Shown in pieces: positions 1 to 25,902 of a DNA stretch of 33,234 nt; position 1 is the first letter of the stretch, and every line of letters begins with the position of its first letter. A program made the translations under genes and the position numbers. The notes below the pieces were generated by a model. It saw only the letters and a program-made list of their open reading frames with translations, had not been told where the DNA came from and did not search any database. This DNA is from Candidatus Nanoarchaeia archaeon (GTDB lineage: Archaea; Nanobdellota; Nanobdellia; CSSed11-243R1): the NCBI GenBank assembly GCA_028713895.1, contig JAQTNH010000001.1, forward strand, positions 725,376 through 758,609, in the 5' to 3' direction.

Positions 1-72
1 ATAGTGGCGATACCACTTGCAATATTGCTGATAGCCATACTTATATGGCTGCGAATGAGAAGAGGATATTGA
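1..72 (+). CDS. 3' end of a membrane-anchored protein (partial)
   Basis: An open frame runs from the window edge to the TGA at 70-72 and encodes 23 residues: a hydrophobic stretch (IVAIPLAILLIAILIWL) followed by a short basic tail (RMRRGY). This is the usual look of a C-terminal membrane anchor with the tail on the cytoplasmic side. The stop codon overlaps the next gene's likely ATG (TGATG at 70-74), so the two genes are probably in one operon and translationally coupled. The rest of the protein lies outside the window, so no function can be given. With only 23 codons visible, the reading rests on the frame, the anchor-like composition and the coupling. Confidence 0.6.
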   Translation: MVAIPLAILLIAILIWLRMRRGY

Positions 73-653
73 TGAGGTATCTCAGGCTTTTATTTTTTGT
101 TTTAGTGCTATTTTGTTTAGCTAACAGCGCTTTTGCTTTTGTCATAGGCGTGGCAAAGCCCAGCGATACATGCATCAAGCCTGACAGGACAGGATTTATT
201 GAAGTTCATTGCGACAGCGGAGCAAGTTCAACGTATGAGTACGAAGCATCGGCTTCAGGGATAAGCTTTGCAAGCATGGAAAGCAACACTTATTTGTTCC
301 TTCCAAAATCAGGGCAGGACATCCCCATTTTTTTGAACACAAGCAAAGTTGCAGAGGGCTATTATAACGGAACTTTTATGTTTTGCCCGAGCGCAGCATT
401 AAGCGAAAACAATGAAAGCCAGGGTGTTGAAGTTGTGCATTGCATAAGCGTCATTGTAAACGTTAATGTTTCAAGTGCATGCCCGGAACTTCCCGCTGGG
501 AAACAGACAGATTCTTCAGCAAATGAAGGCATGTTCAGCTGGATATTCAAATCGCCGCGAATGGCATTTAATATTTTTGCGTCTGTACTCATCTTGATTC
601 TTTTGGCTGTGGTAATAACCAAAAACATTTTAAAAAAGAGGCATAAAAATTAA
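72..653 (+). CDS. Secreted, C-terminally anchored surface protein of unknown function
   Basis: I chose the ATG at 72 rather than the in-frame ATG at 45. It overlaps the upstream stop (TGATG), has a purine-rich GAGAAGAGGA just ahead, and gives a textbook signal peptide (MRYLRLLFFVLVLFCLANSAFA, cleavage likely after AFA). The mature part of about 140 residues is beta-rich with several cysteines and a few N-glycosylation sequons (NTS, NGT, NES, NVS). A short stalk, a hydrophobic helix (FNIFASVLILILLAVVI) and a basic tail (KKRHKN) follow. The product should therefore be an externally exposed protein held by its C-terminus. I recognise no family. The stalk-helix-basic tail order resembles archaeal sorting signals, but I see no PGF-like tripeptide. 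It lies directly upstream of the giant surface protein on the same strand. Confidence 0.75.
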   Translation: MRYLRLLFFVLVLFCLANSAFAFVIGVAKPSDTCIKPDRTGFIEVHCDSGASSTYEYEASASGISFASMESNTYLFLPKSGQDIPIFLNTSKVAEGYYNGTFMFCPSAALSENNESQGVEVVHCISVIVNVNVSSACPELPAGKQTDSSANEGMFSWIFKSPRMAFNIFASVLILILLAVVITKNILKKRHKN

Positions 654-660
654 TTTTAAG

Positions 661-672
661 GATTTTTTCTCC
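661..672 (+). terminator. T-rich terminator candidate after the anchored surface protein
   Basis: A T-run (GGATTTTTTCTCC) starts 7 nt after the stop of the 72-653 gene. Archaeal terminators are often simple T-tracts without a hairpin, so this is a plausible end for the upstream operon, just before the presumed promoter of the giant gene. Confidence 0.4.
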
Positions 673-680
673 TAAAAAAC

Positions 681-734
681 ATTTTTAAACATTGAAAGAC
701 TTGTATTTGCATAGCTTAAGCAGTAAATAAGCTA
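681..734 (+). promoter_or_regulatory. Promoter/leader of the giant surface protein gene
   Basis: A TATA-like TTTTTAAA lies at 682-689, which would start transcription near 712 and give a leader of about 35 nt. The leader would begin with an inverted repeat, TAGCTTA (712-718) and TAAGCTA (728-734), able to fold into a 7-bp stem with a 9-nt loop just before the AGGTGATG (744-751) ribosome binding region. A second TATA-like TAAATAAG at 724-731 would instead give a leaderless start near 752. The sequence alone does not decide between them. Confidence 0.4.
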
Positions 735-748
735 AAAATGAGCAGGTG

Positions 749-3700
749 ATGGTGATTAAGACACCATGGATGAAAAGAGAACGAGTAGGTACGCTTATTA
801 TCAGGACTATCCTTCTAATCGCAGCAGTTTTCATTCTTTTTTACGCATCAAAGGTAAGCGGCGTGTTTGTTTCGCCGCAATGGGAACATGTTGATGCCAT
901 TACTGCAGACAAGAATGTGGAGTTCATAACTTATGACATTACCTTTGATGAATACAAGCCTGACAAATGCGAGAACGGGATTTATGTCAGCGATGGCGAA
1001 GACAAGGTTGATTTTGAGTTAATTGACTCGGAATACGCAGACGGCATCTGCATGCGCGCAACAATCAAATTCAAGAACGAAATTTATGGAGTCACTGAAG
1101 AAGCGCAGGCTGATGAGGAAAGCGGAACAACAACTGTTGAAGCGCCCACCGAAACTCCTGCGGATTCTGAGCCTGCAATTGACAAAGGCAGGGGCGTGCA
1201 GGAAGAGCTCACAGGCAGTGAGCGCATAACCATAACAGGGCAGGTATCAGAATCAGTTACAGGCTCGTTCCAGGCAGAAGAATTCAAAACGTATTATATA
1301 TTCTATGGCTCGCTTTCAGGAGAGCCTGTTGCGCCGTTCAAGAAAGGCAGGGCAATTGTTGAGGAAACAGGGGAAGCAAAACCCCTGATAATCACAATAC
1401 CTGAAACAGAAATCCCGCAGATTATCGCGGAACCTGTAATTGAGGCGCCTGCAAATGAAACTAATGCAACTGCCAATGAGACAAATGCGACGATTAATGA
1501 AACGAATGCTACAGTTCCTTTGGCTGAAAAAGTTTTTTCAGGAAACGGGTTCAATGGGAACTTCAAGAAAGAGATTAATCCTGACGAGATGGTAAGCATT
1601 TCATTTGCCGAGGGGGTGTCCCTTAAATTCGGAATAACCTCGATAAACAATAAAAGCCTGAACACTGTCAACCTCACTGAATCAGAAAACAAAATAGTTT
1701 ATGCGAATGTGCTTGACAATATATCCCTTGAATACGTGACAAGCGCGGATTCAATAAAAGAAATTTTTGTGCTCAACAGCGCCCCTGGACAGACAGATGA
1801 CTTTGTTATTTCAGAGCAAATGTATGTTGACAAGCTCTCAACAGTTTCAGTGAACCCTGATGCGCAGATTGTCTACACAGACAGCAAAGAAAAAATGAGC
1901 GCGTCTGCTGTTCTTGAAACCCAGAAAACCAGCGGAAACTTCAGGACAATGGCGGATGGAATCGCGCCGTCCTCGGTTTTGATATCTGCGCTTGGAAGCT
2001 CCATCGAATCAATTGAGACAACAGAAGACGTTGACTTTAACGCAGACTTCGGGACTGTGTTCTATATCCCTGCAGGAAAAGTCTATGACAGCAGCAATGC
2101 ATCAACAGAAATCACATACAAATTTATGGACAGGGGCGGAAAGATTGCGCTGGACATAATTGTTGACTCAGCATGGCTGCTTGACGCGGCGCGGGTTTAT
2201 CCTGTCTATATTGACCCAACAATAACAAAGTTCTATGCACTGCCTGAAACAGGCTGGATAAATGACCAGCAGCTCGGATACCAGCAGCAAGCGTTCCCTG
2301 CGTTTTACAATGCAGCTGGAGACTTTGTTGTAACATGGATAAATTATTCTGGAGCTGACGGTGTAACCAACGCGCTTAAGGCAAAACAGTTTAATGATTT
2401 CAGCACAGTAAACCTTACTTCAGAATATGATTTTACACAGTGCAATGAGAAGAGAATGCCTGAAGTGAGCACTGGCATTGGAAACGTTAACCAGATTTAC
2501 ATAACATCCACTGCAGCAAGCGAGGCTGGCGGAGAAATCCTTTCAGTTTACACAAACGGTTCAGACGGAGCAGGCACAGGCAATGATGTGTACATGACAT
2601 GGGCGCGCCCAGGAGATGTTTCCGAAACCATTAACGGAGAGTCCTGTACAAACGGGGGCGCAGCAGCAGCAAGGCCGACAGTACGAATGTGCGATACAAC
2701 CTCTGGAAACCAGCATATTGCATATGCTGCAGCAAGCACTGACGGCAACAGATACGGAGCATGCTGGCAGGAATACATGGGGAGCTATCCGGACTGGGAA
2801 ATTATATTCAAGCTTTGGGACGGCACTCCGACAGGAATAAACTACCAGACCCAGCAGGTTAAACCGACAGGCAACAACAGTTGCGGCACATTCTGCACTG
2901 GAAACGAATCAAGCGCGTCCTCGCAAGCCAGCGCAGACAGGGACTTAACCTGCGTAATGGATTTCCAGGTAAACGCAACAAACGATTTTGTAATATGCTG
3001 GGTAAGATATGATGGTTCAGTACGATATAACGGATTGTGCAGGACCTTCAACAGCACAGGATATGCAAAGGCTGCAGCATTTGGATATGAAGCAACTGCA
3101 AACAGCATACGGCCCTCAGATTTGGTATGGCTTGACAATGACCGCTTTGTTGTAGCATACACAGAGTTCAGCACCCCTGCCAAAGTAATGTTTTCAATAT
3201 ACTATGCAAACGGAACTGCAATCGCTGCTGACCAGACAGTCAATGCAACAGGGACTCTCAACAAATATTGGCCGTCTGTTGCGCGGCTTGAGAATGGTAA
3301 TTTCATTTATGTGTACCAGGCTGACTTCGGCGGAACAAACAGCTATGACATACTCGGGGCGCTTTATTACAAAAACGGAACCCTTGCCAATTCAACACAT
3401 TTCATAATGAACGAAAACAGGACAAACAGCCAGACTTACCCGCGCGTGGAAAGCCGCAACGGAACAAATGATTATGTGGTTACATACCAGTCGCAGAATG
3501 ACTCAAACTGGGACGGAGTAAGGATGAGGCTTTTTCATGAGGACATTAGTTCTATTAGCTCCTGCCAAAACCTGACGACAGCGAATACCCTTTATACTTT
3601 AACGCAGAATCTTACGGGCAACCAGTCAAACGGCATATGCATTGATATCCAGGCAAATAACATAATCCTGAACTGCAGCAACTACAACATAACAGGCATT

Positions 3701-6700
3701 TATCCGGGAGCGTCCACTAAAGGCATTAACATTAATGGGAACAACACCACTGTAAAGAACTGCGGGGTTGGCAATTATTCAACTGGCATTTACCTTTCTT
3801 CGTCCTCAAACAGCACCGTCATCAACAACACTTTAGGCAACAATTCTGGTTATGGCATTTACCTTTTGTCATCCTTAAACAACAACCTTACCAACAACTC
3901 TGCCTTTGGCAGTTTTGCTTCAATCCAGCTGGACAATTCCCTAAACAACGTCCTTACCAACAACTCTTTCTATAGCAACTCATTTTATGGGCTTTCCCTT
4001 TCATATGCTTCAAACAACATATTTACAAACAATTCTGTTTACAACAACCTGGACTCCGGAATTATTTTTTCATTTTCAGACAACAACAGCTTCACAAACA
4101 ACAATGCGTCTTTCAACAGTATCTGGGATTTCTATTCGTACGTCAGCTTAAACAATACGGTAATCAACCAGACAATAAATAATGTCCAATCCAGCTTTAC
4201 ATATAACGGCACCATCGGATTAAAATCAGCAACAGCGCCTGCAGGCGGAGACGCGACAAACTACAGGAATATAAGCAAATATCTGAACATAACAAATGAT
4301 TCAGCAGGCGCATGGATTTACATTAACATTTCGTACACAGCATCGGATGTCGTGAATATACTTGATAACTCCACGTTGCGAATCTGGAAGAATGCCACTG
4401 GGGGATGGAGCCAGAACCTCAACCAGGTTGGAGCACTGGTGAGCGGAGTCAACACAACAAGCAGATATGTCTACGCGAACATTTCAAATTTCAGCAGCAT
4501 CTTTGCGCCGATGGGCGAGACAACTGATGTAAGCGTCTGCAGGGACCTGGCAATGCAATCCAAAGCTTATACTGTGACTGCCGACATAAACAGGGTCGTA
4601 AGCGACGGAAGAACAGCATGCATTAGCATAAATGCAAATAATGTAACTTTTGACTGCCAGAACCATAACATTGACGGCAACGGAATTGCCTCTGCGATAA
4701 CATCAGACAGTTATAACAATTCTATAATAAAAAACTGCAGAATAAATCACAGCAGTGTCGGGATAAGCTTTGACTATGTAACCAACAGCACTATAGATAA
4801 TATAACAACAGTTTCAGACATGACTGAACATTGTATAGATATTTTTGAATCCAATAACACTATTGTAAAAAATAGCAATTTCACCGGGCTCAGCGGTGCA
4901 AGCTCCCGCTGCGTTTACTACCCCTGCGCAGGTTACGGAAATTGCTATAACAACAGCGCAATAAACAACACTCTGAAAAACTGCGGGGAAAATGGCATAT
5001 ACCTTGAAGGCGGAATGTCATATGTTGTAGAAGGGAACAACGTATCCGGCGCAAGTAACAGGGGCATCTATGTTGGATATGCTGGCATTGATACTGTATA
5101 CTGCAACATCACACGGAATAATGTCACCAACTCTTCAATAGGCATATTTGTTTTAAACCTCCTTGGCGGAGTATGGGGAAACGGGAACAATTCAATCTGG
5201 AACAACTTCCTTGCAAACAATACCATAAACGCGCAGGACAATTCAACCGTGACAGATTTCTGGAACCGCACAAAGACTGCAGGCACCAACATAATCGGCG
5301 GAACATATATGGGCGGGAACTATTATGACGACTATACAGGCGGAGACTCGGATGGGGACGGGCTAGGAAACGTACCGCACACAATCTCAGGCAGCGCAGG
5401 ACGAAGCGATTCTCTTCCGCTGACAAACAATCAAATTGTTAATTGCAGAAATATTACAACAGCAAATACCGTTTATACGCTTACCAATAATCTCATTGGC
5501 AACCAGTCGCACGGAGTATGCATTGAAATCAAAGCAAATAATGTTACACTGAACTGCGCAGGTTACAGCATCACTGAAAATGTTCCAGGAACAACTACAG
5601 GCGTTAATGTCCAAGGCTATAATACTACCACCATAAAGAACTGCAGGGTTTTTAATTACACTGCAGGGATTCATTTAAATTACAGCAGTAACGGCACCCT
5701 GACCAATAACACGTTAAATCTAAACACAAATTACGGAATTTTTATAGACCTGTATTCAAGCAATACCAGCTTAGCCAATAATACAATTTACAGCAACCCA
5801 TCCTGGGGAGTCTATTTCTATGGTCTTTCAAACAACAACATTTTCACTAACAACAATGCCAGCTTCAACGGTGGCGGAATCCTTCTTGGGGCATCAAGCA
5901 ATAACATTCTTGCCAACAACACAGTATCCCTCAATGCCTATGACATTTATTCATTCTCCAGTTCAAACAATATAATAACCAACCTGACAACAGATAATGT
6001 CCAATCCAGCTTTACATACGTAGGAGACTTTTATCTTAAATCAACAACTGCGCCTGCAGGCGGAGACCCTGTAGGATACTCAAACATTGGAAAATATCTC
6101 AACATAACAAATGTAACAGCAAACCCTGCATGGATTTACATTAATATCTCATATCTGGAGACTGACTGGGGGTCTAATGAGACTTCCATGCGCATATTCA
6201 AAAGTTCTTCAGACGGATGGAACCAGAAGCTTAACCTTACAGGAACTCTTGTAAGCGGAGTCAATACAACAGCCAATTATGTCTACGCGAACATCTCCAA
6301 TTTCAGCAGCGTGTTCGCACCGCTTGAAGTGATTAACATAGCCCCGACCCATTCAACACCTTTTTCAGGGGCGCATGCAAGGCCCAGCACAGACATGGTT
6401 TCGTACTGGCGCTTGGACGGGAACGCCTATGACGATAAGTTTGCCAACAACGGGACTGTTTCAGGAGCCACTGTGACTTATGAAGGCAGAGTCGGCAAGG
6501 CATACAGCTTTGACGGAAGCAATGATTTCATTAATATTTCAAGTATAAGCCCGCCCACAGGAGCAAATCCAAGAACTATGTGTGCCTGGATAAAACCGAC
6601 TTCGACAACAGCAAGAGGCATGATTGAATCTTATGGTAATAATGTAGTTGATCAAAAATGGGATTTTGAAATTAACGGATGGAATGTAGCCCAAAATGGG

Positions 6701-9700
6701 AGATTAGTTGTTCACATTTGGGACAGCGGGATAGCCACAACATCTACTCCCATAACACCTGATGTTTGGCAGTTTGTTTGCGCAGTTTATTCAGGAGGGA
6801 CTCTTCAGAACGGAGTAAGTTTGTATTACAATGGTGTAGCCCAAGGCACACAAGACGCAGGTGGAGGAACTACATATACATGGACACGAACACCTAACAC
6901 AGGCAGTGCTAATTTTGCAATCGGACAAAGAAAACCTGCAGATGCGGGCCCTTTCAACGGCACGATTGACGAAGTAATGATATACAACAGAAACCTTTCA
7001 GCAGCTGCCATACAGGAACTTTATAATTCCACAGCAGGGCCAGCAAATGTTTCTGCAGAAGGAGATTTGGCATGTTCAATGAACGGTTCAGCAGACGCAG
7101 ACGGAGACACACTGATACCTGTTTACAGATGGTATTACAATGACATAAGCTATTCCAGGCTTATAATGCCGTTCAATAACAACGTCAGCAGCGTGACTGC
7201 AAACAAGGTAAGGGATTATTCTGTGTACCAGAATAACGGTACGCTTGGAGGCGGGACAGCTGCAAACGCGCCTGTCTGGACAACTTCAGGAAAAATTGGA
7301 GGAGCTTATGTCTTTGACGGAACAAATGATTATATCAATCTCGGTAGCGGAGCAGGTTTGGCAGTAACTGCTGACTCCTTTACCTTTGAAGCGTGGGCAA
7401 ATACAAAGGAGATTACAGCTTCCGAGTACGGGTACATTATGGGAAAAGCAGGGTGGGACATGGGAATCGGAAGATATGGCGCACAATACTTCTTTTATCT
7501 CTACAACAGTTCCAATTCATTTTTTTCAGTTTGGTCAGGCGCAATCTCTGCAGACACATGGTACCACGTGGCTGGAGTTTATGATGCGAGCCAGTCAAAA
7601 ATATACATATACCTTAACGGTGCTTTAAAGGAGTCAGTTAGTTTTGTAGGAAGCCCGCGAAGTTATTCAGCACAGACATATATCGGCACACCGACTGCAG
7701 CAGGGTTGTATTTCAACGGCACAATTGATGAAGCCCGCATCTACAACAGGTCGCTTAATGCAGAAGAGGTTCTTGAGCATTACCGCGAAAACTATGATTT
7801 TGTCTCGGACAGCCAGACAAACGTTGGAGAGAACTGGACATGCGAAGCAATCCCTACAGATGGAATGGATGACGCGGCTGCAAAGAACGCAACAGATTTG
7901 CTGCTGCAGAAGGATCCCTGTTACATTACAACAACAGTGACTCTTACTGGAAATCTTGTATGTGAAAATGATTTGACTGTAACCTCAACAGGAAAACTGA
8001 ACACCGCAGCCTACAACGTCACTGTTGTCGGGCAGTTGAACGCTTCTGGAAGCTTGAATGCAACCGGAGCCACAGTGCTTAATACGACTGGCAATACTTA
8101 TATATACAGTGGAGCAACATTGGGTTCAGCAACCTGGACAGGCAGTTCTTATTTTGATTCATTGACAATAAATTCTGGAGGAATATACACCTCTTCAAAC
8201 GGAACTACAAAGTTTTCGGATAATATAACTGTTAATTCCGGCGGAGCTTTTAATATTGCAAACAACGCTATTTTGAACATAACTGCCAACTTTACGCACA
8301 GTAGCGGAGCAACAACAGGCATGGGCTTGGGCTCAACAATACATGTATACGGAAAGGTAGTCACAGATACAGGATATGATCCACAGACTTCAGATATCAT
8401 AATGTATAATGGCAGCGAGATAAGCCCTGTTTCTCAATTCCAAAACAATTTTGCGTATCATTTAATTATCCCTGAAGGAGCGACTGTAAGAAAGACAGGC
8501 ACTTATGTAAGTGTCGATGGAACAGTTGAGATAAACGGTACACTTGCCTTTATTTCGGGCAATGACCAGCTGGTAACATGGTACATTTCAAGCATAGCCA
8601 GTTTCATCATGGGCCCAAATGCAAATGTCACAACAATAGTCCTTAATGCTGTTGGAAACACGGCTGTACCAACTTCGACATGGAGCAGGTTTATTTTAGG
8701 GAACGGCGGGACGGCAACACTTTATGGAAATCTTACCCTTGTTTATCCAGGTTCAAGTTCAGGAATCGGCCATTGGAGCGCTGCTGCAGCATCGATACTA
8801 AATATGAGTGGGTATACAGTAAACGTAACCAACGGGCAGAGCTTTTATTTAGGGAGCACAGGCGCAGGATATGTCTGGATAGAGGGCGGAAAACTGCTTG
8901 TATCAAACATATTGGGTGTCAGTATAGATGGATCTTATATTTGGGATATTGGTGCAGGCCAGATATCAGCAGGCGCCTTCAATATCAGCCGCGCATATGT
9001 TAACCTAACATCAACAACAGTTAATGTAACGAACCGTTTCTATGTAAACGCAACTTTCATTGGAGGCAATGGCCAACACACTCTTGGCTGGTTAGATATA
9101 ACCTCGACAGGAAGCTACAATGCGACAACTGGAACAACAACAATAAACTCAAAGGATGGATCAAGTTATGCATTGAAAAATGCGGGAACATTTACCCATA
9201 ATAATGGTTTGGTTAATATAACGGGAGGCGCATCAGGCTGGGTATTAGTTGACATGGGCGGAACCGGCGCAGGAAAAGACTTTTACAATCTTGAAGACGC
9301 GACTCCAGCATATATATACCTGTATTCAAACGTTCAGGTTCTGAATAATTTCCAACACACTGGCGCTGGAAAATTAATAAGCGGAAGCACCCAATACAGG
9401 AACTTTACTGTAGGCGGACTTGCGACAATCACTGCAGGGCGAATAGGAACGCGCTCGGATGACCCAGGATACTCTCCAGGCTACATGACATTCGGTTCGC
9501 TTCTCATAAATTCAGGCGGAAGATATGATGCAACGCACCTTATCACGAACATCACTGCAGGGAATATCATTAACTATGGAATCTTCACCTGCAACACAGG
9601 GACTGTTAATTTTGCTTCAAACGGAACTGTTGTCGGGATAAATGCAACATATCCATTTTATAAATTGGCTGTTGAGGCTGGCGCAAAAGTAACGCACAAA

Positions 9701-12700
9701 GACAGTCTGATTGCAAGTTCTGACGTGAATCTGAATGGCGAGCTGGATTCAAAAGCTGCAGGCGGACTTTTGTTTGACGGAACTGGAGACTACATAAACA
9801 CAACATCATTCCCTCTGTCAGGCAGTGTCTTGTCGTATTCATTCTGGGCAAATACATCCTTGGTTGGATATTATCAGACTTTTATGGGCGACAATGCTCA
9901 GGCAAATGGGGCAGGTTTTATATTCATGTATCGTGATTCTAATACAAACGATCTTTCATACCAATACGCGACAGGTTCTAGTGCTGTAGCAGCAACTGCA
10001 AGCAACTTCTTTGCTGGTTATGACAAAAAATGGATTTATGTTACTGTGGTAGCTGATTACACCAACAAATACATAGCATTCTACAGGAATGGAGACTTAT
10101 TCTACAATTATACCACAGCAAATACGATGTTGTTCCCGTCTGCAGACAGGGTCAAATACATAGGTGCATACAGCACAACTCTGCACAGGATTTACAATGG
10201 TATGCTAAGCGATGTAAGATTATACAACGCTTCTCTTTCATCTGCGGAAATCGGGCAAATCTATGAGAACTCGCCTGTTAGCAGCACAGATTTACAGGGT
10301 TTGTGGAAGCTTAACGAAGGTTCGGGTTCAGTTGCAGCAGATACAAGTGGAAAAAGCAGAACCGGAACTGTGAATGGAGACCTGTTGTGGTTCAGTCCAA
10401 ATGTAACTGCAGGAAGCATGGCAATCAACGCAGGCGGAGTTTACAACGCAACGAGCGGAACCACAAACATAACAAAAAGTAATGCTGCAACTGATTATTC
10501 GCTTTACAGAACAGGAACACTGACACACAACAATGGCAAATTCTTGTTTTCAAAGGATGGGAGCCAGACATATACATATGTTACTGGAGGAACTTTCTAT
10601 GCTCTTGAGATAAACAGCCCTGGAGTTTCACAGTATTTCAAGACAGACACTACAATATTAGGCGCTCTTGATATTATTTCCGGAGCCCTTGACACCCGAG
10701 ATTCGTGGGCATCAACAAGCGAACACTCGCTTACTGTTACTGGTGCTGCAACAATAACAGGGGGGATATATGCACATAACAATAATGGCGGGGCAGACAA
10801 AAACCAGACATTCGGCGCGCTTATAGTAAACTCAGGCGCAACATATGATGCGACAAGCCAGATAACAACAATAACATCGAAGACAACAGGGGACATTGCA
10901 GTAAACCTTAATTCAGGGGCTATAATCACGCACAACAACGGCAAGTTCAAAATACAAAGCACTGCATTTACATACAATGAGTTCCAGAACTTCCTTTATG
11001 ATTTGGAGATAAATGCCAGCGGAGCTGGCGGAGCTGGAGAGGTTTACTATGGAAGATATGGCAGCACAACAACAATAGCGCATGACTTGACACTTGATGA
11101 TGCAAGATGGCTCAGAGGCTATAATGCAGCGGATTCCCTGATTGTAAATAATAACGTTGTTGTAACCGAGGGAAGCCTTGATGGGAGCACAGGAGCCCAG
11201 ACATATGGAAACCTTACTGTAAACTCTGCAGGAACCCTCAGTGCAACAACTGGAGTTACAACTATAGGAAATTTCATTTTCCTTAATGGAACATATACCT
11301 ACAATGGAGGCTCAATAAACATCAGCGGAACAAACACGAAATTCGCAACCGCTTCCGGCGTGAAGCTTGAAAAAGTCACGAGCCCGCCTGCTGACCCTAT
11401 TGGCAACCACAGCATAGGATACTTTGTGAACATCACAAACCTGACTGCAACAGGGGGATTTGGCAATAATTACTTTAACATTACTTATAATGATGCAGAT
11501 GCCCTGCGGGAATCCACGCTTGAGATGTGGAAACACGACGGCTCAAACTGGGTGCAGACAGGGATAACAAGCACCGGCGTTGACACGACAAACAACTGGG
11601 TGTGGGCGAACATCTCAACATTCAGCATATTCGGACTGCTTGAAGACAGCGCTTGCCACATAACAACAGAGTTCACCCTTAATTCAAACCTTGCATGCTC
11701 AAACGGCATGAACATAACTTCAACCGGAATCCTGCATACAGCAGGATACAATGTCACTGTTGTCGGGACACTTAATGACTCAGGGGTTCTGAACGCGACA
11801 GGCGCGACAGTGCTTAATGTTACAGGCGGAGCGCTTGTTTACCCAGACGCAACATTCGGCTCAGCCAGCTGGACAGGCAACAGTTGGATAGGGTACATAA
11901 CAATAGACAACGGAACATACACTGCAACGAGCGGGGTTACAAACATAACCTCAAGGGATGCAGCCACGAATTATGCATTTGCAAAGTTTGACCCGAGCAC
12001 GTTCAGCAACAACAGCGGAACATTTGTGTTCAGCGACAGGGCAAACCAGCAGAGAATAAGGACACAGAGCGACCAGACATTTAATTATGTGATAATTGAC
12101 AAGGGAACGCAGGAGCTCCAGCTTTACACAAATGATTTGCTTGCGCGCAACATCACTGTTGTTTCGGGGGAGATTGAGACAACAGGCAATGCTGCTGTTA
12201 ATTATTATATAACTGCGACAGGAGATGTTCTGGTGCAGAACACCGGAACAATACAAGGCAGAACCAATAGCCACACATTCGGCTCGCTGACAATAAATTC
12301 AGGAGGAACTTACAATGCGACCAGCGGAACAACAACGATAACTTCAGAGAGTGCAGGAAGCTATGCTATCCAGAGCGCAGGAACATTCACGCACAATAAC
12401 GGCCTGCTTAAAATTACAACAGCAGATACGTACATCACCATGGGAGGAACTGGCGCTGGAAAAGATTTGTACAACTTTGAGGACGCAGCCTCATCTTACA
12501 TTTACGTGGTCTCAAACCTTCATGTGCTTAACTATCTGAACAAAACAGGCGCTGGAAACCTAATAAGTATGGGAGGCCAGTATAACAATCTTACTGTTGA
12601 TGGAACTGCTTACATCTCAGGCGGGAGAATTGGATGGTATGCAACTAACCCGCTTTATACTTTCGGTTACATGACATTTGGTTCGCTGTATATCGGGTCT

Positions 12701-15700
12701 GGCTGTAAATATGACGCAACAAACCAGATTACGAACATAACAAACGGCAATCTTGTCAATTACGGGAACTTTACAGCAAATACCGGGACAGTCAACTTCG
12801 CTTCAAATGCAACTGTTGTCGGGATAAATGCAACATACCCCTTCTACAAGATGATTGTTCCTTCTGGCATAGAAGTAATACATAAAGATAACTTAGTTGC
12901 AAGCTCTGATGTGACCTTGAACGGAGAGCTGGATTCCGAAGCAGCTGGAAGCGCATCTTTTGACGGAACAGGAGATTACATCAATATGACAACAGACCCC
13001 ACAGCAGGACTGACTAATGTTACTGTCTCAGCATGGTTTAGATTCAACAATGATGGGGTAAGCAAAGGCATTGCGGGCGCATGGAGTTCTAATACTGACA
13101 TGTCAACCCTTCTTTTCACAGGCACCACTGATAACAAGCTTTATTTCAGAGTAGATACAACTACAGCATCTGCAGCAACATCAAGCGGAGGGAGCGTGCA
13201 GGACAACAAATGGCACCATGGTGTGGGCGTCTACAACTCAACACACGTGCTAGTTTACGTTGACGGGCAGCTTATAGGAACACCTGCAGCGCTTACAGGG
13301 ACAATCTCAAGCTCAACATATAAATACGAACTGGGCAGATATGGTCATGCTGACAGTACTTCACCAAACGGATATATAAATGACGTGAGAGTTTACAATC
13401 GTTCGCTTACTTCTGCGGAAATAGAACAATTATATAAAAACGATTTCACTGAAACAACAAACCTTGCGGGTTGGTGGAAGCTCAGCGATGCAACAGGAAC
13501 AACAGCGGTAGACTCAAGCGGGAAATCAAATACTGGGTATCTGCAGGGCAATGCTGGTTGGTATAATCCAAATGTCACCGCAGGAAGCATGACAATCAAT
13601 GCAGGCGGAGTTTACAATGCAACGAGCGGAGTGACTACAGTAACAAGCTACTTTGTTTCAGGCGTCAATTACGCATGGTACCAGGCAGGAACATTAACAC
13701 ATAACAACGGGACTGTAAACCTGACTTCGGCTTCAACATGGAGCATATACCAGGCAGGCACAGGCAATTTCTATGACTTGGTATTGGCTGCAACAGGAGG
13801 CACACATTATCTTAATTACCTCGCAAACAAAATAATTGTTGACCATGACCTTACAGTACAGGGCAGCGGGACTTATTATGCTTCAAGCAATTCTGCAACA
13901 AACAACTTTACGGTGCTTGGAAACGTTGTAATAAACGGAGGCACGCTTCACGGAGCAGGAGAAACAGCAACAAGTAATGCTACATTCGGCTCGCTTACAA
14001 TAAACTCAGGAGGAACATACAATGCGACAAACGGAAAAACAACCATCACCTCAGCAGATGCAGGCAATTATGCAATTTATGTGAACGGCGGAACATTTAC
14101 CAGGAATACAGGGCTTGTAAACCTTACTTCACCAGCATATCAGTGGCTCAGAGGGCTGACTGGCACAAATTCACTTTACAATCTGGATGCATATGGTTAT
14201 GCAAAAGTTTTCTTTAATACAAATATAACTGGAAACTTTACGTTATACGCAGCACAATTCAGAAGCTATAACGTGGGAGATTATCTTACTGTTGACGGCG
14301 ATGCTGTTGTAAAGAACGGGGCATACCTTGGTTATGAAGTTGCCCGCACAGGTAACTATTCTTTTGATTCGCTTACAGTAGACTCTGGAGCCACATTTAA
14401 TGCCACGAGCGGAATCACAAGAATTGCAGATTACATCTCGTTGAATGGAACATACGGATACACTGGCGGCTCAGTAAACATCAGCGGGACAAATACAAAG
14501 TTCGCGACTGCAAATAATGTCAAGCTTGAAAAAGTCACAAGCCCTCCAACAGATAGTGCATGGTATAAAAACATAACTTATTATGTCAATATAACTAACT
14601 TGACTGCAACAGGCGGATTTGGAGGAGATTACTTTAACATAACTTATACAGGAACAGAACCTATCAATGAATCAAGGCTGGCAATGTGGAAACATAACGG
14701 AACAGCATGGACGCAGACAGGCATAGTCAGCAATGGCACTGATACCACAAACAACTGGGTGTGGGCGAACATCTCAACATTCAGCATCTTTGCGCCGATG
14801 GAACGCCTTAATGTTGCGCCAAACATGACCTCGCTTGTGCTTAACTCAACATATGGCACCAACCTGACGACTGAGAACCTGACTGCTTATGCTGCTTCAA
14901 CTGATACAGACGCAGACAGTGTTACACATATTTACAATTGGTACAAGAACGGAGCGTCAATATCCCTGCTTAACATGCCGTTTGACAGCGATGATTCTGG
15001 CGGGGTAAATACAACAAAAGATTATTCAGGAAGAGGAAACCACGGGCAGCTGGGCAGTTCTGCAGATGGGGATGCAGCAGAGCCAACATGGACAAGTTCA
15101 GGAAAGGTTGGCGGGGCATACAGCTTTGACGGAACAACTGAATACATCAATATTTCTGATACTGTAATTAATACATCAAAACCATTGACTGCCAGCATGT
15201 GGGTAAACCCAGCAAGTTTGGGCGCAACAAAAACTATATTTGGATACAATGATGGAACCAATATTTTTGCAATAACAATAAGGAGCAGTAACGCTTATAG
15301 AATTACTTTGGATGGGGTTGCAATTATTAGTTCAGGAACAATTTCAACAGGCTGGACTCTTCTAACTGTAGTCATAAATGGGACAAATGGCATACTCTAT
15401 TTAAACGGGTCAAATGTAGGTAATATAAACTATGTTGCGACTGGAATAACTAAAGATGTTCTTATAGGCTCTGATATTTCTAGCTTTAATGGTTCAATTG
15501 ATGATGTAATGATTTACAACAGGTCGCTTACAGCAGGACAAGTAATGCAGAGATACCTTGACACAAAGGATGGATACTCAAGCAATTCCACAATACACAG
15601 CGACGAGACAACAACAGGAGAGAACTGGTCGGTTACTGTGACTCCAAATGACGGAGAAGCAGATGGCGTTTCAAACAATAGCAGCAATTTGACAATAATC

Positions 15701-16432
15701 AACACAGTTCCAGTAGTCAGCAGTGCTGCAGTAGTCCCAAGCACGATTGATTTGACGCCATGCGGAAACATCACTGTCAATTGCAGCGCAACTGTTGCAG
15801 ATTCAGACGGTTATACTGATTTACAAAATGTAAAAGCAACGCTTTTCAACAGCGACTTGACAAACAATGCCTGCACTGCAAATGCAACAAAGTGCTACCT
15901 GAACAGCAGCTGCATAAAGACGGACTGCGCAAGTACATCCTGCACTGCAAACTGCACTTTCATGGGCGTAAGACATTATGCGCTCGGAGGCAACTGGAAG
16001 TGCAATATTACCGTGAATGATACGGTCGGAGCCACAAAGTCAGCCGAGGCAAGCGCCACCATGAATAATCTTACTGCAATAAACATAAGTACAGGCATAA
16101 ATTTCAACAGCGTAGTTGTGAACACATACAGCAGCAACATAAGCTTCAATATACAGAACTGCGGAAATGTCGAGCTGGACACAATGCATAACGGGACACA
16201 GATGAATTGCGGCTTGGGGACAGTTGGCGTAAGCAACATATCCTACTCGTCTGCGCAGGCAAGCGGGTACAATGCGCTTACTTCTGCGCTTGCAACATTG
16301 AACATAAACATAACTAACACACTTAATGATACAACAAGCAGCAAAGACAGCTGGTGGAGACTGTTCATGCCTTTAGGCATGGTTGGAAACTGCACAGGAA
16401 ACACAACGTTTGTTTCAATAAGGAGCATCTAA
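749..16432 (+). CDS. Giant secreted multidomain surface glycoprotein (NosD beta-helix, LamG)
   Basis: One uninterrupted frame of about 5,227 codons; GTG 746, ATG 749, GTG 752 or ATG 770 could be the start, and none changes the domain picture. The N-terminus has a basic patch (MKRER) and a hydrophobic segment (residues ~14-36), acting as signal peptide or signal anchor. Then follow: a beta-rich region with three ANETNAT-type heptads (~235-255), ending in VYPVYIDPT (~482-490); propeller-like repeats with FVVTW/FVVAY motifs (~495-935); NosD-type beta-helix domains at ~938-1140, 1263-1560 (ending in the NosD-typical GGNYYDDY...DSDGDG...LPL) and 1565-1745; LamG-like domains near 1882-2095, 2136-2345, 3007-3195, 4069-4270 and 4739-4930; two copies of a >1,000-residue block (2389-3632, 3633-4688); and a Cys-rich Ig-like end (~4985-5227). 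N-X-S/T sequons are dense throughout. There is no C-terminal TM segment. Adhesin or cell-coat function is inferred. Confidence 0.85.
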   Translation: MVIKTPWMKRERVGTLIIRTILLIAAVFILFYASKVSGVFVSPQWEHVDAITADKNVEFITYDITFDEYKPDKCENGIYVSDGEDKVDFELIDSEYADGICMRATIKFKNEIYGVTEEAQADEESGTTTVEAPTETPADSEPAIDKGRGVQEELTGSERITITGQVSESVTGSFQAEEFKTYYIFYGSLSGEPVAPFKKGRAIVEETGEAKPLIITIPETEIPQIIAEPVIEAPANETNATANETNATINETNATVPLAEKVFSGNGFNGNFKKEINPDEMVSISFAEGVSLKFGITSINNKSLNTVNLTESENKIVYANVLDNISLEYVTSADSIKEIFVLNSAPGQTDDFVISEQMYVDKLSTVSVNPDAQIVYTDSKEKMSASAVLETQKTSGNFRTMADGIAPSSVLISALGSSIESIETTEDVDFNADFGTVFYIPAGKVYDSSNASTEITYKFMDRGGKIALDIIVDSAWLLDAARVYPVYIDPTITKFYALPETGWINDQQLGYQQQAFPAFYNAAGDFVVTWINYSGADGVTNALKAKQFNDFSTVNLTSEYDFTQCNEKRMPEVSTGIGNVNQIYITSTAASEAGGEILSVYTNGSDGAGTGNDVYMTWARPGDVSETINGESCTNGGAAAARPTVRMCDTTSGNQHIAYAAASTDGNRYGACWQEYMGSYPDWEIIFKLWDGTPTGINYQTQQVKPTGNNSCGTFCTGNESSASSQASADRDLTCVMDFQVNATNDFVICWVRYDGSVRYNGLCRTFNSTGYAKAAAFGYEATANSIRPSDLVWLDNDRFVVAYTEFSTPAKVMFSIYYANGTAIAADQTVNATGTLNKYWPSVARLENGNFIYVYQADFGGTNSYDILGALYYKNGTLANSTHFIMNENRTNSQTYPRVESRNGTNDYVVTYQSQNDSNWDGVRMRLFHEDISSISSCQNLTTANTLYTLTQNLTGNQSNGICIDIQANNIILNCSNYNITGIYPGASTKGININGNNTTVKNCGVGNYSTGIYLSSSSNSTVINNTLGNNSGYGIYLLSSLNNNLTNNSAFGSFASIQLDNSLNNVLTNNSFYSNSFYGLSLSYASNNIFTNNSVYNNLDSGIIFSFSDNNSFTNNNASFNSIWDFYSYVSLNNTVINQTINNVQSSFTYNGTIGLKSATAPAGGDATNYRNISKYLNITNDSAGAWIYINISYTASDVVNILDNSTLRIWKNATGGWSQNLNQVGALVSGVNTTSRYVYANISNFSSIFAPMGETTDVSVCRDLAMQSKAYTVTADINRVVSDGRTACISINANNVTFDCQNHNIDGNGIASAITSDSYNNSIIKNCRINHSSVGISFDYVTNSTIDNITTVSDMTEHCIDIFESNNTIVKNSNFTGLSGASSRCVYYPCAGYGNCYNNSAINNTLKNCGENGIYLEGGMSYVVEGNNVSGASNRGIYVGYAGIDTVYCNITRNNVTNSSIGIFVLNLLGGVWGNGNNSIWNNFLANNTINAQDNSTVTDFWNRTKTAGTNIIGGTYMGGNYYDDYTGGDSDGDGLGNVPHTISGSAGRSDSLPLTNNQIVNCRNITTANTVYTLTNNLIGNQSHGVCIEIKANNVTLNCAGYSITENVPGTTTGVNVQGYNTTTIKNCRVFNYTAGIHLNYSSNGTLTNNTLNLNTNYGIFIDLYSSNTSLANNTIYSNPSWGVYFYGLSNNNIFTNNNASFNGGGILLGASSNNILANNTVSLNAYDIYSFSSSNNIITNLTTDNVQSSFTYVGDFYLKSTTAPAGGDPVGYSNIGKYLNITNVTANPAWIYINISYLETDWGSNETSMRIFKSSSDGWNQKLNLTGTLVSGVNTTANYVYANISNFSSVFAPLEVINIAPTHSTPFSGAHARPSTDMVSYWRLDGNAYDDKFANNGTVSGATVTYEGRVGKAYSFDGSNDFINISSISPPTGANPRTMCAWIKPTSTTARGMIESYGNNVVDQKWDFEINGWNVAQNGRLVVHIWDSGIATTSTPITPDVWQFVCAVYSGGTLQNGVSLYYNGVAQGTQDAGGGTTYTWTRTPNTGSANFAIGQRKPADAGPFNGTIDEVMIYNRNLSAAAIQELYNSTAGPANVSAEGDLACSMNGSADADGDTLIPVYRWYYNDISYSRLIMPFNNNVSSVTANKVRDYSVYQNNGTLGGGTAANAPVWTTSGKIGGAYVFDGTNDYINLGSGAGLAVTADSFTFEAWANTKEITASEYGYIMGKAGWDMGIGRYGAQYFFYLYNSSNSFFSVWSGAISADTWYHVAGVYDASQSKIYIYLNGALKESVSFVGSPRSYSAQTYIGTPTAAGLYFNGTIDEARIYNRSLNAEEVLEHYRENYDFVSDSQTNVGENWTCEAIPTDGMDDAAAKNATDLLLQKDPCYITTTVTLTGNLVCENDLTVTSTGKLNTAAYNVTVVGQLNASGSLNATGATVLNTTGNTYIYSGATLGSATWTGSSYFDSLTINSGGIYTSSNGTTKFSDNITVNSGGAFNIANNAILNITANFTHSSGATTGMGLGSTIHVYGKVVTDTGYDPQTSDIIMYNGSEISPVSQFQNNFAYHLIIPEGATVRKTGTYVSVDGTVEINGTLAFISGNDQLVTWYISSIASFIMGPNANVTTIVLNAVGNTAVPTSTWSRFILGNGGTATLYGNLTLVYPGSSSGIGHWSAAAASILNMSGYTVNVTNGQSFYLGSTGAGYVWIEGGKLLVSNILGVSIDGSYIWDIGAGQISAGAFNISRAYVNLTSTTVNVTNRFYVNATFIGGNGQHTLGWLDITSTGSYNATTGTTTINSKDGSSYALKNAGTFTHNNGLVNITGGASGWVLVDMGGTGAGKDFYNLEDATPAYIYLYSNVQVLNNFQHTGAGKLISGSTQYRNFTVGGLATITAGRIGTRSDDPGYSPGYMTFGSLLINSGGRYDATHLITNITAGNIINYGIFTCNTGTVNFASNGTVVGINATYPFYKLAVEAGAKVTHKDSLIASSDVNLNGELDSKAAGGLLFDGTGDYINTTSFPLSGSVLSYSFWANTSLVGYYQTFMGDNAQANGAGFIFMYRDSNTNDLSYQYATGSSAVAATASNFFAGYDKKWIYVTVVADYTNKYIAFYRNGDLFYNYTTANTMLFPSADRVKYIGAYSTTLHRIYNGMLSDVRLYNASLSSAEIGQIYENSPVSSTDLQGLWKLNEGSGSVAADTSGKSRTGTVNGDLLWFSPNVTAGSMAINAGGVYNATSGTTNITKSNAATDYSLYRTGTLTHNNGKFLFSKDGSQTYTYVTGGTFYALEINSPGVSQYFKTDTTILGALDIISGALDTRDSWASTSEHSLTVTGAATITGGIYAHNNNGGADKNQTFGALIVNSGATYDATSQITTITSKTTGDIAVNLNSGAIITHNNGKFKIQSTAFTYNEFQNFLYDLEINASGAGGAGEVYYGRYGSTTTIAHDLTLDDARWLRGYNAADSLIVNNNVVVTEGSLDGSTGAQTYGNLTVNSAGTLSATTGVTTIGNFIFLNGTYTYNGGSINISGTNTKFATASGVKLEKVTSPPADPIGNHSIGYFVNITNLTATGGFGNNYFNITYNDADALRESTLEMWKHDGSNWVQTGITSTGVDTTNNWVWANISTFSIFGLLEDSACHITTEFTLNSNLACSNGMNITSTGILHTAGYNVTVVGTLNDSGVLNATGATVLNVTGGALVYPDATFGSASWTGNSWIGYITIDNGTYTATSGVTNITSRDAATNYAFAKFDPSTFSNNSGTFVFSDRANQQRIRTQSDQTFNYVIIDKGTQELQLYTNDLLARNITVVSGEIETTGNAAVNYYITATGDVLVQNTGTIQGRTNSHTFGSLTINSGGTYNATSGTTTITSESAGSYAIQSAGTFTHNNGLLKITTADTYITMGGTGAGKDLYNFEDAASSYIYVVSNLHVLNYLNKTGAGNLISMGGQYNNLTVDGTAYISGGRIGWYATNPLYTFGYMTFGSLYIGSGCKYDATNQITNITNGNLVNYGNFTANTGTVNFASNATVVGINATYPFYKMIVPSGIEVIHKDNLVASSDVTLNGELDSEAAGSASFDGTGDYINMTTDPTAGLTNVTVSAWFRFNNDGVSKGIAGAWSSNTDMSTLLFTGTTDNKLYFRVDTTTASAATSSGGSVQDNKWHHGVGVYNSTHVLVYVDGQLIGTPAALTGTISSSTYKYELGRYGHADSTSPNGYINDVRVYNRSLTSAEIEQLYKNDFTETTNLAGWWKLSDATGTTAVDSSGKSNTGYLQGNAGWYNPNVTAGSMTINAGGVYNATSGVTTVTSYFVSGVNYAWYQAGTLTHNNGTVNLTSASTWSIYQAGTGNFYDLVLAATGGTHYLNYLANKIIVDHDLTVQGSGTYYASSNSATNNFTVLGNVVINGGTLHGAGETATSNATFGSLTINSGGTYNATNGKTTITSADAGNYAIYVNGGTFTRNTGLVNLTSPAYQWLRGLTGTNSLYNLDAYGYAKVFFNTNITGNFTLYAAQFRSYNVGDYLTVDGDAVVKNGAYLGYEVARTGNYSFDSLTVDSGATFNATSGITRIADYISLNGTYGYTGGSVNISGTNTKFATANNVKLEKVTSPPTDSAWYKNITYYVNITNLTATGGFGGDYFNITYTGTEPINESRLAMWKHNGTAWTQTGIVSNGTDTTNNWVWANISTFSIFAPMERLNVAPNMTSLVLNSTYGTNLTTENLTAYAASTDTDADSVTHIYNWYKNGASISLLNMPFDSDDSGGVNTTKDYSGRGNHGQLGSSADGDAAEPTWTSSGKVGGAYSFDGTTEYINISDTVINTSKPLTASMWVNPASLGATKTIFGYNDGTNIFAITIRSSNAYRITLDGVAIISSGTISTGWTLLTVVINGTNGILYLNGSNVGNINYVATGITKDVLIGSDISSFNGSIDDVMIYNRSLTAGQVMQRYLDTKDGYSSNSTIHSDETTTGENWSVTVTPNDGEADGVSNNSSNLTIINTVPVVSSAAVVPSTIDLTPCGNITVNCSATVADSDGYTDLQNVKATLFNSDLTNNACTANATKCYLNSSCIKTDCASTSCTANCTFMGVRHYALGGNWKCNITVNDTVGATKSAEASATMNNLTAINISTGINFNSVVVNTYSSNISFNIQNCGNVELDTMHNGTQMNCGLGTVGVSNISYSSAQASGYNALTSALATLNINITNTLNDTTSSKDSWWRLFMPLGMVGNCTGNTTFVSIRSI
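1451..1513 (+). repeat. Three tandem heptapeptide repeats (ANETNAT, ANETNAT, INETNAT)
   Basis: Three back-to-back 21-nt units encode two N-glycosylation sequons each (NET, NAT). The units use different synonymous codons, so selection on the peptide, rather than recent slippage, keeps them alike. They sit between an acidic/proline-rich stretch and a folded beta region and look like a glycosylated linker. Confidence 0.8.
3560..4165 (+). other. NosD-type right-handed beta-helix domain 1
   Basis: Within the giant protein (residues ~938-1140). It opens with SCQNLTTANTLYTLTQNL and ICIDIQANNIILNC, then runs into repeats of about 22-24 residues with the pattern G-I/S-x-L-S-x-S-x-N-N-x-L/F-T-N-N-S, typical of NosD/CASH parallel beta-helices. 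The opening is closely repeated at 5441 and more loosely at 4535. Confidence 0.8.
4535..5430 (+). other. NosD-type right-handed beta-helix domain 2
   Basis: Residues ~1263-1560 of the giant protein. It begins VCRDLAMQSKAYTV and ACISINANNVTFDC, and closes with GGNYYDDYTGGDSDGDGLG and a later SDSLPL. That closing matches the characteristic end of NosD-family proteins (GGN-Y-W-x-D-Y, D-x-DGDG, D-x-PL). It is the only one of the three helices here that keeps the full family ending. Confidence 0.8.
5441..5985 (+). other. NosD-type right-handed beta-helix domain 3
   Basis: Residues ~1565-1745. Its opening (NCRNITTANTVYTLTNNL, then VCIEIKANNVTLNC) mirrors domain 1, and the same N-N-x-x-x-N-N-T/S coil repeats follow. 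Both domains are followed by the same sequon-rich module, containing NVQSSFTY, AGGD, ANISNFSS and FAP (4170-4515 after domain 1, 5993-6335 after domain 3), so helix plus module were duplicated as a unit. Confidence 0.8.
6394..7780 (+). other. Tandem LamG-like (concanavalin A-fold) domains 1 and 2
   Basis: Two LamG-like jelly-roll domains (residues ~1882-2095 and ~2136-2345). Each has the family's series of motifs: a start such as MVSYWRLDGN or LIMPFNNN, a D-x-S-x-x-x-N-x-G-T strand, an YSFDGSNDFINI-type strand, a W-central AWIKP/AWANT strand, and an ending in FNGTIDEVMIYNRNLS or FNGTIDEARIYNRSLN. This fold is known for binding glycans or matrix ligands; ligand and calcium use here are unknown. 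Confidence 0.8.
7913..11644 (+). repeat. Long intragenic repeat block, copy 1
   Basis: About 1,244 codons, opening with CYITTTVTLTGNL and closing with the LEKVTSPP...NNWVWANISTFSIF module. It contains many short beta-strand repeats of the type FGSLxINSGGxYxATSGxTxI, paired with GTFTHNNGxVNI, plus LamG-like domain 3 (~9766-10330). Corresponding strings recur in the same order in copy 2, with long near-identical DNA stretches, for example 9626-9664 against 12810-12848. Confidence 0.85.
11645..14812 (+). repeat. Long intragenic repeat block, copy 2
   Basis: About 1,056 codons, opening with CHITTEFTLNSNL and closing with the same LEKVTSPP...NNWVWANISTFSIF module as copy 1. It includes LamG-like domain 4 (~12955-13560) and the GGTYNATSGTTTITS strand repeats. 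It is shorter than copy 1 by roughly 190 codons, so some subrepeats were gained or lost after the duplication. DNA around 13568-13630 is close to that at 10398-10460, pointing to a fairly recent event or to gene conversion. Confidence 0.85.
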
Positions 16433-18533: not shown

Positions 18534-19730
18534 TTAAATGTCTTTAAGGAAAACCAGCGTTGCTATGGCAGCTATGAAAAGCGCAGTAGTAAAGTAAAAC
18601 AGGTTTCCAAGCTCAGCGACAGTTAGGACAGCGCCTATTGTCAGCGGGCCAAAGATGCCGCCAATATTGTAAAGCATTTCAGCTGCGCCGTCAACTTCCC
18701 CGCGCAGATTCCGCGCTACCCGTTCCTTTATGTAATAATCAATGATTATCAGTATGAACATCGCACCGAACGATGTCAGCACAAGTGAAATTGCGAGCGT
18801 GATAAGGTTCTGCTGCAACAAAAATATTGCCTGCCCAAAAAGAATCAGCACCGCGCCAATCGGCAGTATCTTCTTTACACCAAGCGAATCCAGCAATTTT
18901 CCCGCAATCAATGCAGAAATTGCCCCAGGCAGGGAGATTAATGCAAGGATTGCCGCGCCAAGCAGTATGCCTGAGCCAAGGCTGTTTGCATAAATCGGCT
19001 CAAAAGTCCAGATTGCGTATTCCCAGTAACCGAAGACAAAGGAAAATGCAAAAATTGCTATCAAAGGCTTGCCCAGCTTGTAGACTGCCTTTGCTTCCCC
19101 AAAAAACAATCCGTCGTGCCAAAGAATGTTCTTTGCCCGCTTGAACCCGTCAAGATTAATGTGGGTTTTTCCAGGGAAGAGAAATATTGCAAAAGAGAGT
19201 ATAACCAATACAGACAGCATAAGAAGCTTGAGCATGAAAGTTACATCGAACAAAAGCATGAGGACTCCTGCAATGAGCGAGCCAAACAGCCAGCCTGCGT
19301 AGTTGACTGATGTGAAAAATCCTGCAGACTCGCCAACAATGTGCGGGCGCGCGTGGTCCAAGACAAAAACAAATGCGCTTATGCCGTACATTGTTGAAAA
19401 TATCCCGTACATAATCATGAAAAATAAAAATGCCTGAAAATTCCCTCCGAACAGGAACAGAAAGGAAGCTGCAAAGCCCAGCAACCCAAGAATAAAGACA
19501 AACTTTTTTCCAAGCTTGTCGCACAAGTCACCCGCAGGCAGGCTTGCAAACAGCGAGGCTATGGGATGCGATGACAAGATGACTCCGACAAGGAAAAGGC
19601 TGTTAAGCCTGGATTCAAAATAGATTGGCATGAAATACCAGAGGATTCCCTCGATAAGCGTTACGAGCCCGAAAAGCACCGCTATATTGCGCGTCTTGCT
19701 GTTTATGTAAAAAAACGGGCTGTGGTGCAT
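18534..19730 (-). CDS. Major facilitator superfamily (MFS) transporter
   Basis: The 398-residue protein has about 12 hydrophobic helices, the full MFS length. An MFS motif-A-like loop lies between helices 2 and 3 (GDLCDKLGKKFVF, close to G-x-x-x-D-K-x-G-x-K), and a second copy follows the middle of the protein (GKLLDSLGVKKIL). The ATG at 19730 has TTTTAAATA about 25 nt upstream, so it is probably leaderless. It is divergent from the half-size MFS gene beginning at 19816. The substrate cannot be read from sequence; efflux of a small molecule is a usual role for this type. Confidence 0.85.
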   Translation of the reverse strand: MHHSPFFYINSKTRNIAVLFGLVTLIEGILWYFMPIYFESRLNSLFLVGVILSSHPIASLFASLPAGDLCDKLGKKFVFILGLLGFAASFLFLFGGNFQAFLFFMIMYGIFSTMYGISAFVFVLDHARPHIVGESAGFFTSVNYAGWLFGSLIAGVLMLLFDVTFMLKLLMLSVLVILSFAIFLFPGKTHINLDGFKRAKNILWHDGLFFGEAKAVYKLGKPLIAIFAFSFVFGYWEYAIWTFEPIYANSLGSGILLGAAILALISLPGAISALIAGKLLDSLGVKKILPIGAVLILFGQAIFLLQQNLITLAISLVLTSFGAMFILIIIDYYIKERVARNLRGEVDGAAEMLYNIGGIFGPLTIGAVLTVAELGNLFYFTTALFIAAIATLVFLKDI

Positions 19731-19747
19731 GAATGTTTAACAGCGCA

Positions 19748-19796
19748 GTTATTTAAAAATGTTTCAAAACATGTTCAGCCCAATGTTTATATTTAT
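19748..19796. promoter_or_regulatory. Divergent promoters between the two MFS genes
   Basis: A minus-strand TATA-like TTTTTAAAT (about 19750-19758) lies 25 nt from the full-size MFS start. A plus-strand GTTTATATTTA (19785-19795) lies about 26 nt before the ATG at 19816. Both genes look leaderless and are transcribed away from each other. Confidence 0.5.
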
Positions 19797-19815
19797 CATG
19801 TTCTTGATTACTGTA

Positions 19816-25800: not shown

Positions 25801-25902
25801 TCATACTTTTGAGAATGTTACTTAGCTTAAGTTACATCAGATTTTTATACCAAAAATTTGTTGATAAAAATATATTGATTGTTTTGAGGGGATGTGATTT
25901 CA

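Follow-up and report, generated by a model that had tools for sequence, protein, structure and literature searches.

The stretch of DNA analysed here, referred to as the window, comprises 33,234 nucleotides (G000:C1:725376-758609) of a draft archaeal genome of 1.07 Mb in 13 contigs. On its plus strand it carries an uninterrupted frame (746/749-16432) for a giant protein, which has 5,227 residues when counted from the ATG at 749 and a stop codon ending at 16432; the single intact frame of 15.7 kb described in the original prediction is thus open throughout. Immediately before it lie the genes of a 202-aa membrane protein and of a tandem-Ig membrane protein, hereafter the partner (Table 1), preceded in turn, upstream of the window, by genes for three secreted paralogues of 302-307 aa (L009:3851-4774, 4895-5809 and 5931-6839). 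All of these genes share one strand, with gaps of 27 bases between the last paralogue and the partner gene and of 95 bases between the 202-aa gene and that of the giant, suggesting that the cluster may be co-transcribed.

The window neighbours are archaeal (SecY, ribosomal proteins L15, L30, S5 and L18, a Cbf5-type TruB with a PUA domain, aMBF1 and an EMC3-like protein), which together with the small genome fits the reduced archaeon expected from the DNA alone. Two divergent back-to-back MFS genes were also noted at 18534-20801, the second of 203 aa and equivalent to half a transporter, followed with a four-base overlap by a GNAT acetyltransferase gene. A 362-aa frame with no Pfam or NCBIfam match (25894-26982, plus strand) adjoins an AbrB/MazE-like gene at 25438-25719.

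The frame of the giant is real and more than a chance opening, and there is no obvious misassembly. It is extremely improbable that several genes were joined here by misassembly or annotation. The assembly is a draft and repeats are present inside the gene, but the longest of these DNA repeats are 60-83% identical, with no near-identical copies, and are therefore too diverged for assembly collapse; the frame is single and open, and similar giants are encoded in other genomes. Three repeats (D2, D3 and D9) share a spacing of 3,159-3,186 bases and self-comparison of the protein gave the same offset (about 1,050-1,065 residues), indicating that a module of ~1,050 residues was duplicated in tandem long ago; this module consists of a repeat block, a LamG domain, a repeat block and a small beta domain. 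The module copies show 56-66% protein identity and dS far exceeds dN (dN/dS about 0.1-0.4), so that the sequence appears to have been maintained as protein under purifying selection, which also argues against an artefact.

Table 1 Features of the giant gene and its upstream neighbours, in window positions
Feature	Position	Strand	Basis or remark
Tandem-Ig membrane protein, 401 aa (WxLIP-like partner), 3' end	1..72	+	full gene L009:6867-8072 = window -1133..72
Membrane protein, 202 aa, between partner and giant	45..653	+	overlaps end of partner gene
Giant secreted protein, 5,227 aa	749..16432	+	open frame; 557.7 kDa, calculated pI 4.6
N-terminal hydrophobic segment, residues ~13-33, signal peptide or signal anchor	785..847	+	hydropathy
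N-terminal region, residues ~260-505, ends YPVYIDPTI	1526..2263	+	no family match
Region earlier called propeller-like, residues ~505-935	2261..3553	+	no Pfam/NCBIfam family
NosD/beta-helix stretch 1, residues 947-1100, 23-residue period	3587..4048	+	Pfam
~100-residue beta domain copy 1, residues 1142-1255	4172..4513	+	sequence comparison
NosD/beta-helix stretch 2	4667..5341	+	Pfam E 9.5e-28
NosD/beta-helix stretch 3	5591..5983	+	Pfam Beta_helix E 9.3e-17
~100-residue beta domain copy 2	5987..6325	+	62% identical to copy 1
LamG domain 1	6512..7015	+	PF13385 E 1.4e-23
LamG domain 2	7316..7771	+	PF13385 E 4.9e-28
Beta-rich repeat block 1	7901..9658	+	putative fold; opens tandem module copy 1 (about 7901-11698)
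LamG domain 3	9776..10252	+	PF13385 E 3.1e-16
Beta-rich repeat block 2	10256..11366	+	repeat comparison; putative fold
~100-residue beta domain copy 3	11360..11644	+	
Beta-rich repeat block 3	11666..12851	+	putative fold; opens tandem module copy 2 (about 11696-14818)
LamG domain 4	12962..13423	+	PF13385 E 1.6e-26
Beta-rich repeat block 4	13451..14516	+	putative fold
~100-residue beta domain copy 4	14519..14800	+	
LamG domain 5, inserted in Ig-like domain	15128..15544	+	PF13385 E 6.7e-23; flanks read from sequence
C-terminal two-domain tail, residues 4963-5227, Cys-rich, proposed docking tail	15635..16429	+	homology to paralogue ectodomains

Architecture of the giant protein

Most of the architecture read from the sequence at the outset was borne out. 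Hydropathy placed the N-terminal hydrophobic segment at residues ~13-33 and detected no other membrane segment; Pfam recognised NosD/Beta_helix in the three expected stretches (E 1e-12 to 1e-28) and Laminin_G_3 in all five LamG-like domains, positioned by genome search; and the end is indeed rich in cysteine, with 12 of the 51 cysteines of the protein lying within residues 5005-5215, inside the last 223 residues, ten of them conserved in the paralogues. The propeller-like repeats proposed for residues ~505-935 were not confirmed, as this region yielded five loosely spaced motifs and no Pfam or NCBIfam family. The same two libraries gave no family for residues ~260-935 as a whole or for the four repeat blocks, which total about 1,700 residues. 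Repeats and a tandem module are present in these blocks, but their reading as NosD-like helices was not supported, since they matched no family, were not connected with the NosD stretches in profile comparisons and showed weak periodicity. A beta-LamG profile match of 96.6% was set aside, being a 23-column overlap that arose from the boundaries chosen.

Several functional assignments of the giant were also rejected. It scored 33.6 and 47.6 bits against the NosD copper-insertion model (TIGR04247, cut-off 300), so its NosD likeness is one of beta-helix fold only, and about 50 bits, in the LamG part only, against the TafC fimbrial model (NF052521, cut-off 410). A Pfam conotoxin match in the tail (E 0.02) fell below the cut-off and was read as a chance match of cysteine pattern. 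Anchoring by PGF-CTERM and archaeosortase was dismissed since a C-terminal hydrophobic segment is absent, and a search of the genome gave no PGF-CTERM protein. Despite this, the window contains an exosortase/archaeosortase family gene at 22227-23177 on the minus strand (Pfam 2e-11; TIGR04178 above its cut-off). N-glycosylation sequons are strongly enriched in the giant, with 220 compared with 119 in shuffled sequences. It was also observed that in many secreted proteins of these archaea (L009, L011, L012, L046 and L028) the hydrophobic segment is directly followed by [ILV]-[ST]-G (ITG, VSG or ISG), perhaps a common signal peptidase site; in the giant VSG stands at residues ~35-38.

The tail, its paralogues and the partner protein

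Over their whole length, the ectodomains of the three paralogues match the C-terminal ~260 residues of the giant with 33-37% identity (BLASTP E 1e-37 to 7e-41), and the significant BLASTP match between the giant and the paralogues is confined to this tail. A tail profile searched against the genome found exactly four copies, all at this locus. The tail had no match in a PDB sequence search, which linked neither it nor the paralogues to any solved fibre subunit. An AlphaFold model built from six tail sequences reached a pLDDT of 58 with a poor second domain, and its Foldseek matches (RbmA and others) were discarded. The tail was also rejected as a WxL domain, since hhalign gave 0.1-0.4% against five WxL proteins.

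Profile-profile comparison of the second tail domain, represented by eight sequences of the window type, scored 93.1% (P 3.2e-7, 124 columns) against the small paralogues found across the class and 69% against the tails of the large proteins of the class, with all controls (LamG, the small beta domain, the first tail domain and WxL) below 4%. The class-wide C-terminal profile, A8, had no significant match on the window's own genome, so the link from the giant to the class rests on these profile-profile comparisons. The kinship of its tail with the class-wide C-terminal domain thus appears to be remote, supported but not certain.

For the partner, an AlphaFold model from 18 sequences (pLDDT 81.6) consists of three Ig-like domains followed by a membrane helix at the C-terminus; residues 117-126 alone fall below a pLDDT of 50 and form its sole disordered loop. 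The first prokaryotic Foldseek matches of this model are WxLIP proteins of E. faecium (9i25_C, 'WxLIP bound to long WxL', E 1e-9; 9i1y_A, E 1.2e-9), ranked below axonemal tandem-Ig proteins. Bacterial WxLIP ectodomains, taken from plasmid-encoded proteins of food and environmental Bacilli and trimmed of signal peptides and membrane helices, matched the class partners at 94% (P 1.4e-7) and those of the window type at 89%, with colinear alignments through both Ig domains, in profile comparisons in which seven control profiles reached at most 9% and PapD-type chaperones of E. coli K-12 0.2-0.5%. The Pfam WxLIP models gave no match on the partner of the giant and matched three relatives below the cut-off, and the NQIDKxxxYFDLK motif of DUF916 is absent from its sequence. 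Its second domain matched CARDB-type chains (2kl6/3idu) in the PDB sequence search, and a weak NCBIfam match to TapA (E 8.5e-4) fell below the cut-off.

The cluster in related genomes and its possible function

LamG giants were found in 34 of the 57 nearest genomes of the class, so the size and domains of the protein are by themselves ordinary. The unrecognised domain order is indeed not known elsewhere, but proteins of this kind are common in the class. A second large secreted protein of the window's genome (1,958 aa; L008:3834-9710, minus strand, on G000:C1) carries two LamG domains ahead of 21 RHS repeats, with a serine recombinase gene nearby. The window-type tail is rare among the same 57 genomes. 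A member of the same family, G004, encodes a tail-domain protein, a partner and a small membrane protein in that order, the last (166 aa, L027, with a C-terminal membrane segment) occupying the position of the 202-aa protein beside the partner; G090 encodes tail proteins of 310, 918 and 314 aa and then a partner. The vicinity of the cluster includes a tRNA methyltransferase-like gene both in the window's genome (L009:34-942) and in G004 (L027:5324-5829), suggesting an old genomic site.

The partner family occurs in 173 of 378 class genomes, and at 24 of 25 loci one of the two genes directly upstream codes for a secreted protein with a related C-terminal domain. Because the domain had been defined on those 25 loci, the linkage was retested in 20 other, independent genomes, where 24 of 25 domain matches had a same-strand partner at a distance of at most 2.5 kb (0.15 expected). 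The class-wide domain was found in 60 of 148 genomes of the phylum. A frequent gene order is large protein, membrane protein of ~160 aa, partner, small paralogue of ~215 aa and second partner; the large protein is upstream of the partner in most clusters and downstream of it in the window's genome. Most of the large cluster proteins examined elsewhere have LamG or beta-helix domains, and they reach 4,936 aa in frames free of masked bases (L095). Apparent fusions of partner and large frames in G120 and G173 proved to be runs of masked N. Still larger frames were seen in relatives (10,180 aa with several LamG domains in G024:C12; 9,180 aa with the class-wide C-terminal domain in G313:C28), although masked N may lengthen them.

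How DPANN-type archaea hold their hosts is, to our knowledge, an open question, and we know of no means of attachment for most of their giant surface proteins. We think it moderately probable that several genes here form a surface-display cluster with the giant as its cargo, the tail of the giant being docked on the adjacent Ig partner much as in WxL clusters. It would be exported via the Sec route, and its body of beta-helix, LamG and repeat domains (about 4,500 residues) would extend from the cell. Beta-helix and LamG folds are common in carbohydrate and protein binding, and the body may bind glycans of partner cells or the extracellular matrix. Homology and gene linkage suggest that the two-domain tail holds the giant at the surface by docking on the tandem-Ig protein, while the three paralogues, being tail domains alone, may share or cap the same platform. 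By analogy with WxLIP, the partner probably makes contact through residues ~112-135, the one disordered loop in its first Ig domain, and would in this way lend a strand to the tail. The corresponding hairpin loop of WxLIP is disordered alone and predicted to insert into WxL and complete its sandwich (PMC10599100), and the partner's only disordered loop falls in the corresponding part of the alignment. Several observations count against such docking: tandem-Ig folds are widespread and the top Foldseek matches are axonemal, the N-terminal hydrophobic segment of the giant could itself act as an anchor, and the tail is not WxL by sequence while the partner has three Ig domains compared with two in WxLIP. 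Further points against it are the place of the giant downstream of the partner, contrary to the order in most clusters, the lack of a significant A8 match on the window's genome, and Pfam WxLIP matches that come from relatives alone and fall below the cut-off. More tentatively, and with somewhat less confidence than in the docking of the giant, it is possible that the class owns a WxLIP-type display in which a tandem-Ig hairpin inserts a strand into a C-terminal domain common to small proteins and giants, so that many lineages could exchange adhesive bodies on a single, conserved dock, in cells that lack the peptidoglycan which WxL binds.

Of the surface adhesin or coat originally suggested, the secreted, surface-exposed and adhesin-like character is supported by the domains, the 1.07 Mb genome, the archaeal neighbours and the excess of sequons (220 vs 119). 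A main coat subunit seems unlikely. In such a case the giant, alone or with its paralogues, would form an S-layer-like lattice, for which the tandem-Ig protein would be the anchor or part of a secretion apparatus. The same sequon enrichment would suit a coat, three near-equal paralogues could build a lattice, and S-layer-like proteins encoded next to secreted and Ig-like membrane proteins have been described in archaea including DPANN (PMC6393860, PMC5898192). However, an adhesin would be a better match than a regular lattice for 5,227 residues in an irregular domain order and for cargo bodies that differ greatly in size and content between genomes.

The three tandem tail-only proteins, the weak TapA match of the partner and the strand donation proposed from its likeness to WxLIP would all agree with tail domains that polymerise by strand exchange, as in TasA/TapA, with the giant as tip adhesin of a paralogue fibre. 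This is distinctly unlikely given that the tail and paralogues have no sequence link to solved fibre subunits and that class-wide clusters often contain just one or two small paralogues. It is very unlikely that the giant is held by an uncleaved N-terminal segment, with the tail serving another use and the neighbours merely co-expressed. Its sole hydrophobic segment is N-terminal, and some large proteins elsewhere have long N-termini before a presumed membrane segment, but the tail-partner linkage (24/25) and the occurrence of small tail-domain-only proteins in the same clusters would both be left unexplained. Docking on the partner, if true, would provide a testable mechanism and, as a conserved cluster of cargo plus dock, a route to adhesins in other genomes, the dock being present in nearly half of the class genomes searched.

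Comparison with known systems

Neither a WxL/WxLIP system in archaea nor the display reading with its WxLIP relation was found in the literature searched, which was mostly open-access. Large LamG/beta-helix proteins of small-genome archaea resemble the giant in their LamG and NosD-type domains, secretion signal and length of thousands of residues; it differs in its domain order, tandem module of ~1,050 residues and tail type, which were not seen in the other genomes searched. In TasA/TapA fibres, too, small beta proteins are secreted and act with an assembly partner, and the weak TapA match points in the same direction, but that match is below the cut-off and no solved fibre subunit was linked to the tail. 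Secreted and Ig-like membrane proteins beside S-layer-like proteins in archaea have been interpreted as a secretion system (arCOG02487, arCOG02884; PMC5898192, PMC6393860). The extracellular Ig-like membrane and secreted proteins of that predicted system are a feature shared with the present locus, whereas its ATPase, vWA and DUF4350-type genes were not noticed in the portion of the giant's cluster that was read.

The WxL/WxLIP system (csc clusters) has been described in Firmicutes, where it is tied to peptidoglycan. The archaeal cluster was not classed as a WxL cluster because its tail failed the WxL domain test: the tail is unrelated to WxL by sequence and lacks the dual WxL motif (two W-x-L). 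The partner, in turn, has three Ig domains instead of two and lacks the NQIDK...YFDLK motif, and the archaeal cell has no known peptidoglycan. Nevertheless, in both systems a small protein made of the C-terminal domain, a large protein ending in the same domain and a membrane-anchored tandem-Ig partner are clustered. The partner, with its three Ig domains and no Pfam match, is like WxLIP (signal peptide, DUF916, DUF3324 and membrane helix) in layout and predicted fold, resembles it by profile (89-94%) and has its disordered loop in the same place. Taken together, this suggests that these archaea use a two-part anchor, resembling that of Gram-positive bacteria, to display giant adhesins, which, if true, would extend a WxL/WxLIP-like principle to archaea.
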